Source: Actinopolymorpha alba DSM 45243 (GTDB taxonomy: Bacteria; Actinomycetota; Actinomycetes; Propionibacteriales; Actinopolymorphaceae). Taken from it: a DNA stretch of 64,000 nt. A program made the translations under genes and the position numbers. Below, one piece after another: positions 1,973-43,664 of this stretch. Each line of letters begins with the position of its first letter. Within the stretch, counting starts at the first letter, position 1. The DNA lies in NCBI RefSeq assembly GCF_000373925.1, contig NZ_KB892731.1, positions 33,532 through 97,531 of the forward strand, written 5' to 3'. Under the pieces are notes generated by a model. That model saw nothing but the letters and a program-made list of their open reading frames with translations, did not search any database and was not told where the DNA came from.

Positions 1973-3025
1973 TCAGCGGTTGAACTCCAGGTAGCGAGGA
2001 GCCGCACCCCGCACCTGCACCTGTAGGCGGAGGCTCTTCACCGCGTCCTTCGGCACCAGGAACGCCGTCACGATCTTCTGGTTCTGTCCCGGCGCGATCG
2101 GCTTCTGTTCGTACTCCCCGGCCTTCTGGTAGCACCCGGTCGCCGGGTCGCCCACCGCCTCGAAGTCGGCCACGCTCGAGCGGGCGGCGTTCCACTGCCG
2201 GCCCCGGTCGTCGACGGCCTTGAACTGGCAATCGTAGATTCGCTTGCTTGCCCGCGCATCGGACGGCGTGACCGACAGCCCGACGTACACCACTGCGGTG
2301 TCCTTGGGGATACGCGCGTCCTTACGCTCTGGTCCGGGCACCATCACGATGAACTTCCACGTGCCGCCCGCATAGCTGCCGGTCGCGCCCTTCGCGACGA
2401 CGACGGCCTCGTGCATCAGCTCCGGTGAATCCTTGCGATCGAGCCAGTACTCGAGTCCGATCGTGCCGGGCAGCAGGACAAGGAGAGCCAGGACGTACGC
2501 CAGGGTCGAACGCCGCTTGGCGCCGCGGCGTACCCCCTGCCGGCGACGTGACGTCGGGGAGGCGGCGGGCCGGTCGGATCTCTCGGGGGGCACGGACGGC
2601 GGCCAGTGACCTGGCGGTGCCGCGTGAGACCCGGGTGGGTACGCCGCGTGGGGCGGAGACGGGTAGGCCCCTTGCGGTGAGGGCGAGTAGGTCCCTGGGG
2701 GCGCGGAAGAGTAGGGAGTCTGTTGGTGCGAAGGCGCGTACGCCGGCGGGCGCGCCGACTGCGGTGCTGTCCCACCCCAGCCGCCGGGCGCGGGCGCCGC
2801 GTCTGGTGGTGATCCGTACGGTCGTGCTCCCTGCGGAGGTGCTCCATAGGGACCGGGTGCCGCTGCCGTGCGTGGGGGTGGGCCACCCGACGGCGTACGC
2901 CAGGACCAGCCCGGCTGTCCGGGCTGAGCCGGTGGCCCGTCCGGCGGTCCGGGACTGGCGTCTGGCGGTCCGGGGTTCGCGTCCGGCGACCGGCGCGGAG
3001 AGTGCGGTGGTGGCGCGTCGTTCAT
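1973..3025 (-). CDS. Pro/Gly-rich membrane-anchored protein with extracytoplasmic domain
   Basis: The 350-residue product begins with about 160 residues dominated by Pro, Gly, Ala, Ser and Tyr (PPDASPGPPDGPPAQPGQPG type repeats). A basic patch (RRRQGVRRGAKRR) and one transmembrane helix (AYVLALLVLLPGTIGLEYWL) follow, then a roughly 150-residue domain probably outside the membrane. That domain has two Cys and a beta-rich look, resembling DUF4352-type immunoglobulin-like domains only loosely. It is the last gene of a three-gene operon (4576 to 1973) and starts 13 bp after the previous stop. The function is unknown; the shared topology of all three products suggests an envelope complex. Confidence 0.7.
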   Translation of the reverse strand: MNDAPPPHSPRRSPDANPGPPDASPGPPDGPPAQPGQPGWSWRTPSGGPPPRTAAAPGPYGAPPQGARPYGSPPDAAPAPGGWGGTAPQSARPPAYAPSHQQTPYSSAPPGTYSPSPQGAYPSPPHAAYPPGSHAAPPGHWPPSVPPERSDRPAASPTSRRRQGVRRGAKRRSTLAYVLALLVLLPGTIGLEYWLDRKDSPELMHEAVVVAKGATGSYAGGTWKFIVMVPGPERKDARIPKDTAVVYVGLSVTPSDARASKRIYDCQFKAVDDRGRQWNAARSSVADFEAVGDPATGCYQKAGEYEQKPIAPGQNQKIVTAFLVPKDAVKSLRLQVQVRGAAPRYLEFNR

Positions 3026-3038
3026 CTGGCGTACCCAC

Positions 3039-3623
3039 TCATCTGCCGTACCCGACCGAGGTCAGCTCGATCTGTGGGGCGGCACTCCTGATCAGTCGCC
3101 GCGCCGTTGCGGCGTCGAGTCCGAGATCGACCACGGCCTGCGGGGCGAGCCGGGTGTCGAGTCCGGAGATCCGGAACACCGCGCCCGCGAGCTGGTCTGG
3201 CGGTAGCTCGAAGACGATCTGGCCACGGCGAGGAATTCCGGGCTCGGTGTTGTAGTCCTCGGTGAGGCGGTTCGTGGTGCTCGGGCGTTCGGACACCAGG
3301 TAGATGGTGCCGTCGGGGGTCCGCAGCTCGGCCGAGTCGTACGTCGCGACCTTCCAGTTGCCAGTCAGCGTCGCCGTCAGCACGAGCCAGATGCCGTCAG
3401 TCGTCAGCGGAGGTCCCGGGCTGAACCCGCCCTCGGCGAGCTTGCGGGTCACCTGGACCTTTTCGACGGTGATGGCGAAGCCGCCGGTGTCGACGTCCTC
3501 GCCGACCTTGCCCTCGGTGGCGATCGGCGCGAGCCGCCGGTCGGGGTCGGGGATCTGGCGGTTCGCCACGACGACGGCGATGAGCAGCAGCGCACTGAGC
3601 GCAGCAGCTCCAACCCGTCTCAT
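3039..3623 (-). CDS. membrane-anchored/secreted protein, DUF4352-like
   Basis: I place the start at the ATG at 3623. It gives an N-terminal signal or anchor helix (MRRVGAAALSALLLIAVVVA) directly, whereas longer versions read through the upstream repeats and give low-complexity sequence. The product is 194 residues. After the helix comes a Pro/Asp-rich linker, then a beta-rich domain with the pattern GGFAITVEKVQ, GIWLVLTATLTG, YDSAELRTPDG and PRRGQIVFELP, typical of DUF4352-like extracytoplasmic domains (inference by pattern). The ATG overlaps the stop of the preceding 27-codon mini-ORF as ATGA, and a GAGGA Shine-Dalgarno lies 7 bases upstream inside the repeat. Confidence 0.75.
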   Translation of the reverse strand: MRRVGAAALSALLLIAVVVANRQIPDPDRRLAPIATEGKVGEDVDTGGFAITVEKVQVTRKLAEGGFSPGPPLTTDGIWLVLTATLTGNWKVATYDSAELRTPDGTIYLVSERPSTTNRLTEDYNTEPGIPRRGQIVFELPPDQLAGAVFRISGLDTRLAPQAVVDLGLDAATARRLIRSAAPQIELTSVGYGR

Positions 3624-3703
3624 GCGCGTCCTCGCTCCGCTGCGGGCGCGCATGAGGCACTCAAGCCGCTGTCCTGAATGATTCGCTCGCTCCGCTCGCT
3701 CAT
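3620..3703 (-). CDS. 27-codon mini-ORF (third copy of tandem unit)
   Basis: The peptide starts MSERSERIIQ and ends CAPAAERGRA. Its TGA stop overlaps the ATG of the 3623 gene (ATGA), which suggests translational coupling. A GAGGA Shine-Dalgarno in the preceding unit serves its start. It is too short to recognise by homology, and translation is an inference. Confidence 0.45.
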   Translation of the reverse strand: MSERSERIIQDSGLSASCAPAAERGRA

Positions 3704-3860
3704 GCGCGTCCTCGCTCCGCTGCGGGCGCGCATGAGGCACTCAAGCCGCTGTCCTGAATGATTCGCTCGCTCCGCTCGCTCATGCGCGTCCTCGCTCCGC
3801 TGCGGGCGCGCATGAGGCACTCAAGCCGCTGTCCTGAATGATTCGCTCGCTCCGCTCGCT
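3621..3860 (-). repeat. three perfect 80-bp direct repeats between two operon genes
   Basis: Units 3621-3700, 3701-3780 and 3781-3860 are identical at all 80 positions, with no spacer. On the minus strand each unit contains an 8-bp inverted repeat, CATGCGCG / CGCGCATG. Its right arm includes the start codon of the next reading frame, and its 18-base loop contains the GAGGA ribosome-binding sequence. A diverged single copy lies at 43581-43664. The perfect identity indicates a recent tandem amplification. Confidence 0.9.
3700..3783 (-). CDS. 27-codon mini-ORF (second copy of tandem unit)
   Basis: Identical to its neighbours at every base. The stop overlaps the next mini-ORF start as ATGA, and the start overlaps the previous mini-ORF stop in the same way. 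The 80-base period equals 84 coding bases minus the 4-base overlap, so the repeat length itself preserves the coupling. Confidence 0.45.
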   Translation of the reverse strand: MSERSERIIQDSGLSASCAPAAERGRA

Positions 3861-3863
3861 CAT
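3780..3863 (-). CDS. 27-codon mini-ORF (first copy of tandem unit)
   Basis: The first unit of the array. Its ATG overlaps the TGA of the upstream membrane-protein gene (ATGA at 3860-3863), so the chain gene, mini-ORF, mini-ORF, mini-ORF, gene is linked by four successive ATGA junctions. Confidence 0.45.
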   Translation of the reverse strand: MSERSERIIQDSGLSASCAPAAERGRA

Positions 3864-4576
3864 GGGCGTCCCTTCGTGACCGGCAACCTGACCCGGGCGA
3901 CAACGGTGTCGTCGAGGGTACGGCGCCATTGGAGCCTCTCGTCGAAGAAGCCCGGCGCCTGCTGCCAGCCGTAAACCCCGACCTCCACCTCAGCGGGCCG
4001 CGGCTGCGACTTGGGCAGCTTGTAGACCACGAGGACCCGGCGCGGGAGGCCGGGATGGAGCTGGGCGAATGAGAGGTCCGCCGCGAGGACGGCGCCGGCC
4101 CGCATCGGGATCGACTTCCTGTCCGCGGCGTCGATCGTGAAGCCGTTCGGGAGGCGTACGACGTAACCGTCCTGGACCTCCGAGGCGAAGCGGGTGCTCT
4201 CCGGCGCGGTCAGCTTCAGGTCGGCCTCGACGACGAGGTAGCGGCCGGCCTCGGCGTAGCTCGTGTCGTTGGTTGGGTCCTTGTCGGCCGTCCATGCCCG
4301 TCTGGCGGTGACCTCGAAGCGGCCGTTGTCGATCGGCTCACCGACCGGGACCAAAGGTGGCGGTGGTGTCGGCGCGGCGCGAAGGCCACCCGCACGCTCT
4401 ATGAGGACGAGCGCCGCACCCAGCACCACCAGGACCAGTCCGATCGCCAGCGCGTACACACCGAGCCGGCGACGCCGGGCCGGCGGCGCGATGCGGCCCG
4501 GTGCGGCGGGCGAGCTGACCGGTGGGCTGGCCGGTGGGCTGGCCGGCGGGCTGGCCGGCGGGCTGGAAAAGGACAC
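3860..4576 (-). CDS. membrane-anchored protein with ASPP-repeat N-terminus
   Basis: The 238-residue product starts at GTG 4576. The N-terminus holds repeated ASPP units encoded by a 12-bp DNA repeat (about 4520-4565). A basic cluster (PPARRRRLG) and one transmembrane helix (VYALAIGLVLVVLGAALVLI) follow, then a domain of about 165 residues probably outside the cell. Segments such as RYLVVEADLKLT and GYVVRLPNGF suggest a beta-sandwich like those of the two downstream products. It is the first gene of the operon. The TGA stop overlaps the first mini-ORF start (ATGA). Function unknown. Confidence 0.7.
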   Translation of the reverse strand: MSFSSPPASPPASPPASPPVSSPAAPGRIAPPARRRRLGVYALAIGLVLVVLGAALVLIERAGGLRAAPTPPPPLVPVGEPIDNGRFEVTARRAWTADKDPTNDTSYAEAGRYLVVEADLKLTAPESTRFASEVQDGYVVRLPNGFTIDAADRKSIPMRAGAVLAADLSFAQLHPGLPRRVLVVYKLPKSQPRPAEVEVGVYGWQQAPGFFDERLQWRRTLDDTVVARVRLPVTKGRP

Positions 4577-4640
4577 GGCCAGGCATCCTACGAGAGAACC
4601 CCGACGGGCCGCCCCGGCCGGGAACGCACGGTCGGGACTA

Positions 4641-4740
4641 CGCCCGCCGTCGCCTACCTACGCCCGCCGTCGCCTACCTACGCCCGCCGTCGCCTACCTA
4701 CGCCCGCCGTCGCCTACCTACGCCCGCCGTCGCCTACCTA
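4641..4740. repeat. 20-bp minisatellite, five perfect copies
   Basis: The unit CGCCCGCCGTCGCCTACCTA is repeated five times without interruption in the gap between the methyltransferase stop at 4754 and the membrane-protein start at 4576. The preceding bases ACTA and following CGCCGGCCGG continue the pattern weakly. No spacers are present, so it is not a CRISPR array. Confidence 0.9.
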
Positions 4741-4753
4741 CGCCGGCCGGTCC

Positions 4754-40644: not shown

Positions 40645-41630
40645 GTGCTTGTGTCGCGTGACGTGATCTCTGATGAGGCGTGGGCCGTGCTCGGGCCTCT
40701 GTTTCCCGCTGTGAAGGCTACGGGCCGTCCGCCGGTAGACCGACGCTCGGTGGTCGAGGCGACGGCGTGGCGGTTTCGCACCGGGGCGCCGTGGCGTGAT
40801 CTGCCCGAGCGATTCGGGAGCTGGAACACGATCTACAAGAACTTCGACCGCTGGTCGACGGCCGGGGTCTGGGCGCGCGTCCTCGAGCAGGTCCAGGCGA
40901 TGGCTCACCAGGGCGGCGACGTCGACTGGATCGCGTCGATCGACTCCACGATCGTGCGTGTCCACCAGCACGGCGCGACCCTGCCCAGGGACACAGGGGG
41001 CACGGTCGAACTACAAGAAGTTCGGAGATGAACCCGCTGATCACGCGATCGGCCGCTCCCGTGGCGGGTTGACGACCAAGACGCACCTGGTCGCCGACGG
41101 CAAGGGGCGGGCGCTGGCGTTCGACCTGACCGGTGGCCAGGTCGCGGACGGCAAGGGGCGGGCGCTGGCGTTCGTCCTGACCGGTGGCCAGGTCGCGGAC
41201 GGCAAGGGGCGGGCGCTGGCGTTCGTCCTGACCGGTGGCCAGGTCGCGGACACGACCATGCTGCCCGACACGCTCGACGAGATCCGCGTGGCCGGCGCGA
41301 CCGGACGGCCACGTCAGCGCCCGGACCGGCTGCTGGCGGACAAGGGCTACCCGTCCAGGGCGAACCGGGCGTGGCTGCGCGAGCGCGGCATCGCCACGAC
41401 GATCCCGGAACGTGACGACCAGATCGCCCACCGCCGCAAGCGACCTGGCCGCCCGATCGACTTCGGTGACGAGGTACCGGGGCCGCAACGTCGTCGAGCG
41501 CTGCTTCAACAAGCTCAAGCAGTGGCGTGGGCTCGCGATGCGATCAGACAAGACCGCCCGCAACCACCACTCCGGTCAGTGCCTCGCCGCCACACTCCAC
41601 TGGGTCCAGACCTTTAGCAACATGGCCTAG
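40645..41630 (+). pseudogene. IS5-family transposase, frameshifted twice
   Basis: Three frames carry the protein. Frame 1 (40645-41030) has SDEAWAVLGPLFPA, RTGAPWRDLPERFGSWNTIYKNFDRW and DSTIVRVHQHGA. Frame 2 continues YKKFGDEPADHAIGRSRGGLTTKTHLVADGKGRALAF to RPIDFGDE. Frame 3 has RYRGRNVVERCFNKLKQWRGLAMRSDKTARN. These are IS5/IS427-type DDE transposase blocks. The first shift, near 41015, could reflect programmed frameshifting, but no slippery run is present; the second, near 41478, has no such excuse. A 51-bp triplication lies between them. The final TAG stop uses flanking host bases. Confidence 0.85.
41090..41242 (+). repeat. 51-bp in-frame triplication inside transposase
   Basis: Three tandem 51-bp units (41090-41140, 41141-41191, 41192-41242) each encode VADGKGRALAF(D/V)LTGGQ. 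They differ at only two or three bases. IS5-family relatives have one unit here, followed by VADTTML, so this is an expansion after the transposase lost constraint or by slippage. Confidence 0.9.
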
Positions 41631-42943: not shown

Positions 42944-43584
42944 GGGCGGGCCACCGCCCCCGTGACGCTCGCCACCAGCGCACGGGCCCGCGCGGAGAGC
43001 GCGTCGAGATCACCGCCCGGCTCGCAGGCGTCGGCGACCAACGGACTCCCCACCCCTACGCCGACCGCTCCCGCCGCGAGGTAGGCACCGGCATTGTCGA
43101 CGTCAACGCCGCCGGTCGGGACCAGCGGGATGTCGGAGAGCGGCCCTCGAACCGCCTTGATGTACGACGGGCCGCCTACTGCGGAAGCCGGAAAAACCTT
43201 GACCATCGCGGCACCCGCCCGCCATGCCGTGAGGATCTCGGTGGGAGTCAGCGCGCCCGGAAGGACGGGTACGCCGAGGCGGGTGCCCTCCTCGATGACG
43301 TCAACGCAGATGGACGGTGAGATGAGGTACGTCGCACCGGCCTCGACCGCTGCCCGCGCCTGCTCGACGGTGATGACCGTGCCGGCGCCGAGGGCCACGT
43401 CGGCCGGCTTGCAAGCGGCGTAGGCGCGGATCGCGTCAGCGACGTCCGGTGCCGTGAACGTGAACTCCACGGCCCGGATGCCGGCCTCGACCAGGACGTC
43501 ACTCACGTCGGAATACCGGGCCGCTGACGACGACCTCAGAATCGCGACCGCCGGGCACTTCTTCATGGCCTGCTGCAAGCTCAT
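42940..43584 (-). CDS. eda: KDPG/KHG aldolase
   Basis: The 214-residue product from ATG 43584 has the aldolase motifs AVEFTFTAPDVADAIRA (catalytic Glu), LGAGTVITVEQARAAVEAGATYLISP and MVKVFPASAVGGPSYIKAVRGPLSDIPLVPTGGVD, with the Schiff-base Lys in VKVFP. It splits 2-keto-3-deoxy-6-phosphogluconate into pyruvate and glyceraldehyde-3-phosphate. Its ATG overlaps the stop of the 27-codon mini-ORF (ATGA) and is predicted to be hidden in a hairpin formed by the mini-ORF sequence. Confidence 0.92.
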   Translation of the reverse strand: MSLQQAMKKCPAVAILRSSSAARYSDVSDVLVEAGIRAVEFTFTAPDVADAIRAYAACKPADVALGAGTVITVEQARAAVEAGATYLISPSICVDVIEEGTRLGVPVLPGALTPTEILTAWRAGAAMVKVFPASAVGGPSYIKAVRGPLSDIPLVPTGGVDVDNAGAYLAAGAVGVGVGSPLVADACEPGGDLDALSARARALVASVTGAVARP

Positions 43585-43664
43585 GCGCGTCCTCGCTTCG
43601 CTGCGGGCGCACATGAGGCACTTTTCGCGCTGTGTTGGATGATTCGCTCGCTGCGCTCACTCAC
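43581..43664 (-). CDS. 27-codon leader mini-ORF upstream of aldolase gene
   Basis: GTG 43664 follows a strong GGAGGGG. The peptide begins MSERSERIIQ and ends CAPAAKRGRA, the same length and frame as the 3.6-kb array units. Compared with them, five codons change silently and four or five change the residue, clustered at positions 11-14 and 23. The TGA overlaps the aldolase ATG. The hairpin arms CATGTGCG / CGCGCATG keep eight pairs through one G-U. Confidence 0.55.
   Translation of the reverse strand: MSERSERIIQHSAKSASCAPAAKRGRA

Follow-up and report, generated by a model that had tools for sequence, protein, structure and literature searches.

The MIRUs of mycobacteria are apparently mobile units that insert at start codons and contain an internal ORF coupled with a spacing of −4 nt (2025 review, PMC12548453). 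Units of 77 and 53 bp have been described in the senX3-regX3 operon (PMC4213456), and models in which ATGA coupling proceeds through unfolding or reinitiation have been reviewed (PMC12548453). The family of repeats analysed here uses ordinary ATGA coupling of this kind; it differs from other −4-nt overlaps and leader-ORF arrangements in that the leader ORF comes from a dispersed, stackable repeat.

The likeness to MIRUs extends over most of the design. Both are short interspersed or tandem units placed at start codons, single or stacked, and the present family occupies about 48 array sites in this genome, of which the array described below is one. In both, the internal ORF overlaps the neighbouring genes by 4 nt (38 chained arrays here and 73 in other genera), insertion takes place at NTGA with the empty site found in relatives, and orientation matches that of the flanking genes. 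Unit length is 2 mod 3 in both, a GAGGAG-type ribosome site precedes the outgoing start, and two-component operons are among the targets (senX3-regX3, PMC4213456; a Kribbella junction in this work). The coupling design, which a sequence-only reading of this DNA had considered undescribed, is thus already on record for mycobacterial MIRUs (PMC12548453). The sequences themselves are different. The MIRU units read here begin with RTGAnnCGCGCCGGCGACGATGCAG, whereas the units here begin with RTGAGCGAGCGNAGCGAGCGAATCAT, and most of the unit does not align; the lengths are 53 or 77 bp in MIRUs as opposed to 80 bp here, and the host range of the present family is non-mycobacterial, the host of the window belonging to the order (Propionibacteriales) that also includes Kribbella and Nocardioides. 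Only the GAGCGNAGCGA..GAGGA stretch aligns between the two, with 1 of 16 pairwise comparisons lying beyond all 400 shuffles. Because architecture and arithmetic are alike while only this short stretch can be aligned, the family is best classed as a counterpart of MIRU outside mycobacteria that is distinct in sequence; it works like MIRU but is not a proven member. In the open-access literature, we found nothing relevant on MIRU-like elements outside mycobacteria, and "MSERSER" returned unrelated plant papers only.

Three coupled mini-ORFs between two genes

Repeat analysis of the window (the whole stretch of 64,000 nucleotides that was analysed) identified three copies at 80-bp spacing, with 99–100% identity over 93 nt, at positions 3619–3871. 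Tandem Repeats Finder reported a single 80-bp array at this locus with 99% matches, and the repeat is far beyond chance. Repeat search and translation bore out the three perfect 80-bp units with 27-residue mini-ORFs described in the sequence-only reading; mini-ORFs 1–3 all translate to MSERSERIIQDSGLSASCAPAAERGRA followed by a stop. The ATGA overlaps that were said to link the mini-ORFs to each other and to both flanking genes were likewise confirmed at 3620–3863 on the minus strand (Table 1), with the TGA stop of the upstream gene (3862–3860) overlapping the first ATGA of the array. The proposed equality of repeat length with ORF minus overlap also holds (84 − 4 = 80). The description of the neighbours as envelope-protein genes was a guess: both products look membrane-anchored, but neither has a Pfam match. 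Pfam also gave no family for the mini-ORF peptide, and Rfam gave no RNA family above the gathering score in window 3000–4700. Homologues of the two flanking genes adjoin each other in genomes G006 and G007.

Table 1. Positions of the repeat units, their hairpins and the adjoining genes in the window.
Feature	Position	Strand	Description and basis
Upstream gene	3860–4576	−	238 aa from GTG start; Pro-rich N-terminus; one membrane segment by eye
Mini-ORF 1 / repeat unit 1	3780–3863 (unit 3784–3863)	−	ORF translation and repeat analysis
Mini-ORF 2 / repeat unit 2	3700–3783 (unit 3704–3783)	−	ORF translation and repeat analysis
Mini-ORF 3 / repeat unit 3	3620–3703 (unit 3624–3703)	−	ORF translation and repeat analysis
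Hairpin of unit 3, CUCAUGCGCGCCCGC...GCGAGGACGCGCAUGAG	3619–3656	−	Holds the downstream start codon; inverted repeats, RNA fold, covariation
Equivalent hairpins of the other two units	3699–3736 and 3779–3816	−	Inverted repeats
Downstream gene	3039–3623	−	194 aa; N-terminal membrane segment by eye; ATG at 3623 is that of the last ATGA
Second family member (L082)	43581–43664	−	One unit; GTGA left, ATGA right; precedes 214-codon ORF

Very probably, the array consists of tandem copies of a short, non-autonomous interspersed element whose insertion target is the start codon (RTGA) and whose insertion is tolerated by means of its coupled mini-ORF. Each 80-bp unit begins at the target ATGA and recreates one at its end. 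Its frame of 26–27 codons starts at the incoming start codon and ends in a TGA that overlaps the outgoing one; the unit also supplies a GAGGA-like ribosome site and, around the outgoing start codon, a hairpin. A ribosome that leaves the upstream gene, or one that initiates at the original start, would then read the mini-ORF, open the hairpin, stop at the TGA and restart on the ATG of the next unit or gene, so that translation is predicted to run through the whole chain of mini-ORFs. Because the ribosome would be handed on in this manner, an insertion would be tolerated and tandem multiplication would become possible. We infer that the main reason for the design is the harmlessness of the insert rather than a function of the peptide, and that the element is mobilised by some activity.

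Other features were observed in the window. Five to six near-perfect 20-bp tandem repeats (CTACGCCCGCCGTCGCCTAC) lie at 4638–4749, just upstream of the first gene flanking the array, and 41089–41251 contains 3.2 copies of a tandem repeat, matching at 98%, whose unit of 51 bp is a multiple of three. The 214-codon ORF behind the second family member looks like a KDPG-aldolase-type sequence.

Placement at start codons and empty sites

The census of the family was based on DNA searches, pattern searches and the reading of 48 genome stretches. At E ≤ 0.001, the repeat DNA of the window matches 41 places in the genome. Its 26-nt left end, with up to 3 mismatches allowed, has 65 genome matches as opposed to 0 for a reversed control pattern. 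Units in this genome are 80 bp long, are present in 1–4 copies per array and vary mainly in codons 10–15. The near-identical copies within an array indicate that local duplication does multiply units. However, the reading of the repeat as chance, or as a plain tandem duplication of the 5' end of one gene, is already refuted by the dispersed copies, some 48 sites before unrelated genes, and recurrence in many genera together with clean empty sites speaks against it as well; we consider its probability negligible.

When the mini-ORF was followed from each start in a scan of 46 rows, 38 arrays chained via an NTGA overlap into a gene, 4 were fused in frame to the gene, 2 ran off the contig and 0 were dead ends, the two remaining rows being a chance match and one at a contig edge. 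An ORF of at least 130 codons was reached by 44 of the 46 arrays, compared with 130 of 666 control RTGAG sites in the same loci (19.5%; p about 4e-29). Every chained or fused array is co-oriented with its downstream gene, and the genes targeted are functionally mixed. Among length-variant mini-ORFs in this genome, the overlap is kept in 6 of 6, where two in three would be expected to lose it; this speaks for selection on the chain, although some of these variants could be inherited, so that the count overstates independent events. The scan passed over three more arrays, L070, L072 and L105, whose left end is shortened. L105 is an exception to the pattern, since its last ATG opens only 11 codons and no gene starts at its right end.

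The left end coincides with the stop codon of an upstream ORF in 26 of 47 arrays, compared with 3 of 25 comparable RTGA starts elsewhere in the loci (p = 0.0004), where the upstream ORF had to span at least 100 codons and score best of the six frames in a codon-usage measure simpler than a full gene caller. No upstream ORF ends at the left end in 16 of 47 arrays and 5 of 47 are ambiguous; these 16 comprise gene starts preceded by a ribosome site, starts that appear to be leaderless and sites with a truncated unit in front. Most of the arrays that do not begin on a stop codon lie at normal gene starts. The notion that the element is exclusive to ATGA overlaps did not survive these counts, which indicate that the element targets the start codon: overlaps are enriched among its sites but are not a requirement.

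Comparison with relatives identified the unoccupied state of two sites. The occupied junction in the window reads ...GGACGCCC-ATGA-(3 units)-ATGA-GACGG, whereas the same gene pair contains no insert in two genomes of the same family (...GGTGCCGG-ATGA-GGCGG in G007 and ...GCGAGCC-GTGA-GACGC in G006). In Kribbella, a junction between a kinase and a response regulator (identities read from the protein ends, not from a family search) contains exactly 76 extra bases and a second NTGA in three species (G025, G610, G042; L274–L276). The corresponding junctions L286, L287, L291 and L296 have a plain ATGA, directly after which the same codons follow, and the other Kribbella junctions have a plain ATGA with a regulator longer or shorter by a few codons. 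Given 76 bp plus NTGA in some species and a plain ATGA in their relatives, the insertion of 76 bp and 4 bp is precise and nothing was lost. Empty sites and genome-wide placement together substantiate the earlier proposal of a modular element that inserts at junctions with the −4 overlap kept, and, at the level of genome anatomy, its presence at ATGA junctions without a break in the predicted coupling is well supported. A retained-target model, in which GTGA would lie on the left and ATGA on the right, was attractive from 5 of 5 GTGA sites in this genome. It was not adopted because Nocardia sites comprise four GTGA/GTGA and two and two of mixed type, and because the left base differs among the Kribbella species that share the insertion.

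Some arrays have altered relations to genes or contigs. In-frame fusions of the unit's left half to the starts of unrelated genes occur in L085, L091, L101 and L113 (minus strand) and also in L150 and L187; the proteins that result begin with MSERSERI or a similar sequence. At L072, around position 2516 on the minus strand, the right half of the unit appears to have turned into the C-terminus of the upstream gene (...ASGAPGAKRGRA and stop). The end of contig C41 (L089) and the start of contig C63 (L098) lie in the same unit variant, which suggests that the assembly probably broke at an array of two or more copies and that these contigs are neighbours.

Hairpin, conserved left block and possible roles

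RNA folding of the right half of the unit yielded a 46-nt structure of −27 kcal/mol (z = −4.1 and −3.7) whose stem includes the next AUG. Across 94 distinct 80-bp units, 61 stem cells were changed on both sides, compared with a shuffle mean of 18.7 and a maximum of 28 (500 column shuffles), in tests that ignore relatedness; stem pairing over these units was 76%, as opposed to at most 52% in slid registers. When the set is thinned to 12 rows, pairing is equally good in a register shifted by one, which indicates that the exact stem pairs differ between genera. The sequence-only reading had placed each downstream AUG in an 8-bp stem with GAGGA in the loop. The fold agrees on the position of the AUG, but the stem has at least 10 uninterrupted pairs and GAGGA is partly paired, not simply in the loop. 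The hairpin could play its role either as RNA, by masking the start site, or as DNA, in mobilisation.

These properties bear on the idea of a regulatory relay selected for its effect, in which unit number and hairpin would set a ratio, or a strict dependence, of downstream on upstream translation. Such a relay would be consistent with a start codon in the hairpin stem (z about −4), with the compensatory changes in this stem, with the overlap chain being intact in all arrays of this genome and with three Nocardioides genomes retaining one and the same insertion site (L118, L121, L145). However, gene pairs of relatives without the element keep a simple NTGA junction, the targets are functionally mixed and many sites are first genes without an upstream cistron; the hairpin could equally be a DNA end recognised in transposition. 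Selection for a regulatory effect is therefore possible but, in our judgement, unlikely.

The mini-ORF peptide itself was also considered as the functional product. In its favour are the conservation of its opening MSERSERI across genera and an entropy that is slightly lower at first codon positions than at the other two. Against this, synonymous third positions in the conserved left block hardly vary, column 12 excepted, which indicates that the nucleotide sequence and not the residues is conserved there, whereas residues 10–27 vary freely and the mini-ORFs differ in length; the motif is also fused to the N-termini of unrelated proteins. With the left block conserved as nucleotides and the rest variable, the peptide is unlikely to be what matters; given this substitution pattern, we rejected a peptide function and regard it as highly improbable.

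With respect to mobilisation, a hairpin beside a fixed tetranucleotide and nine Pfam Y1_Tnp matches in the genome would be in line with an HUH transposase (Y1, IS200/IS605 or RAYT-like) that recognises hairpin and NTGA and moves the element as it would a REP. REPs are typically extragenic and are not known to carry a coupled frame. The present family shares with the REP/RAYT (TnpA_REP) system its small size, dispersal, hairpin and lack of coding capacity for its own movement, but differs in lying nearly always at a start codon, co-oriented with the gene, and in having no linked RAYT among the five of nine Y1_Tnp loci examined. No complete unit adjoins these five loci, where the only matches are isolated weak ones to one half-motif. 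The intact transposases that were read resemble short TnpA proteins of the IS200 type (142 aa), and their occurrence in a single genome does not prove a link. Moreover, the left and right tetranucleotides of Nocardia sites agree more often than not, as target duplication would give. An HUH transposase thus appears a distinctly doubtful candidate.

Occurrence in other genera and in mycobacteria

Among the matches listed, the exact left-end pattern occurs in Micromonosporaceae, Nocardia, Nocardioides, Kribbella, Streptomyces, Kitasatospora, Nonomuraea, Pseudonocardia and others. It is present in 4 of 396 genomes spread over the phylum, which makes the distribution patchy, and in 33 of 59 genomes of a single genus, probably Nocardia; the 93-nt unit of the window has no match in five genomes of the same genus as the window. 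Arrays in other genera chain into a gene in 73 cases and are fused in 11, as opposed to 4 dead ends, counts that overstate the number of independent events because some length variants and orthologous insertions could be inherited. The right halves of these arrays provide an independent test, since most of the loci were picked by the left end alone (26 nt). Unit lengths in these genera are 68, 71, 77 and 80 bp, all 2 mod 3, as is required of an ORF with a 4-nt overlap, and L123, L160 and L172 are broken arrays.

The design known from MIRU is hence not peculiar to mycobacteria but occurs across several actinomycete families with different sequences. We can offer only tentatively, and with considerable doubt, a wider account in which a sequence-distinct, start-codon-targeting mobile family of several actinomycete families, moved by an activity reading RTGA and hairpin, acquired this design independently or anciently. 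Such a family may now form a stackable translational relay before dozens of genes per genome and may in places have been domesticated as N-terminal extensions. In-frame unit fusions may explain the recurrent MSERSER N-termini in actinobacterial annotation. One and the same gene pair with 0 to several coupled mini-ORFs provides natural replicates for measuring translational coupling, and array copy number could type strains outside mycobacteria as MIRU-VNTR does within. The placement also raises the question of which enzyme inserts DNA at start codons.

For comparison, mycobacterial arrays were located with a MIRU core that was verified in the data, in a genus that is probably Mycobacterium. 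They comprise 53-bp tandems with ATGA chains and one 77-bp unit leading into a gene. In this genus, one gene junction contains a single MIRU-type unit in two genomes and six in another (L247, L254, L265).
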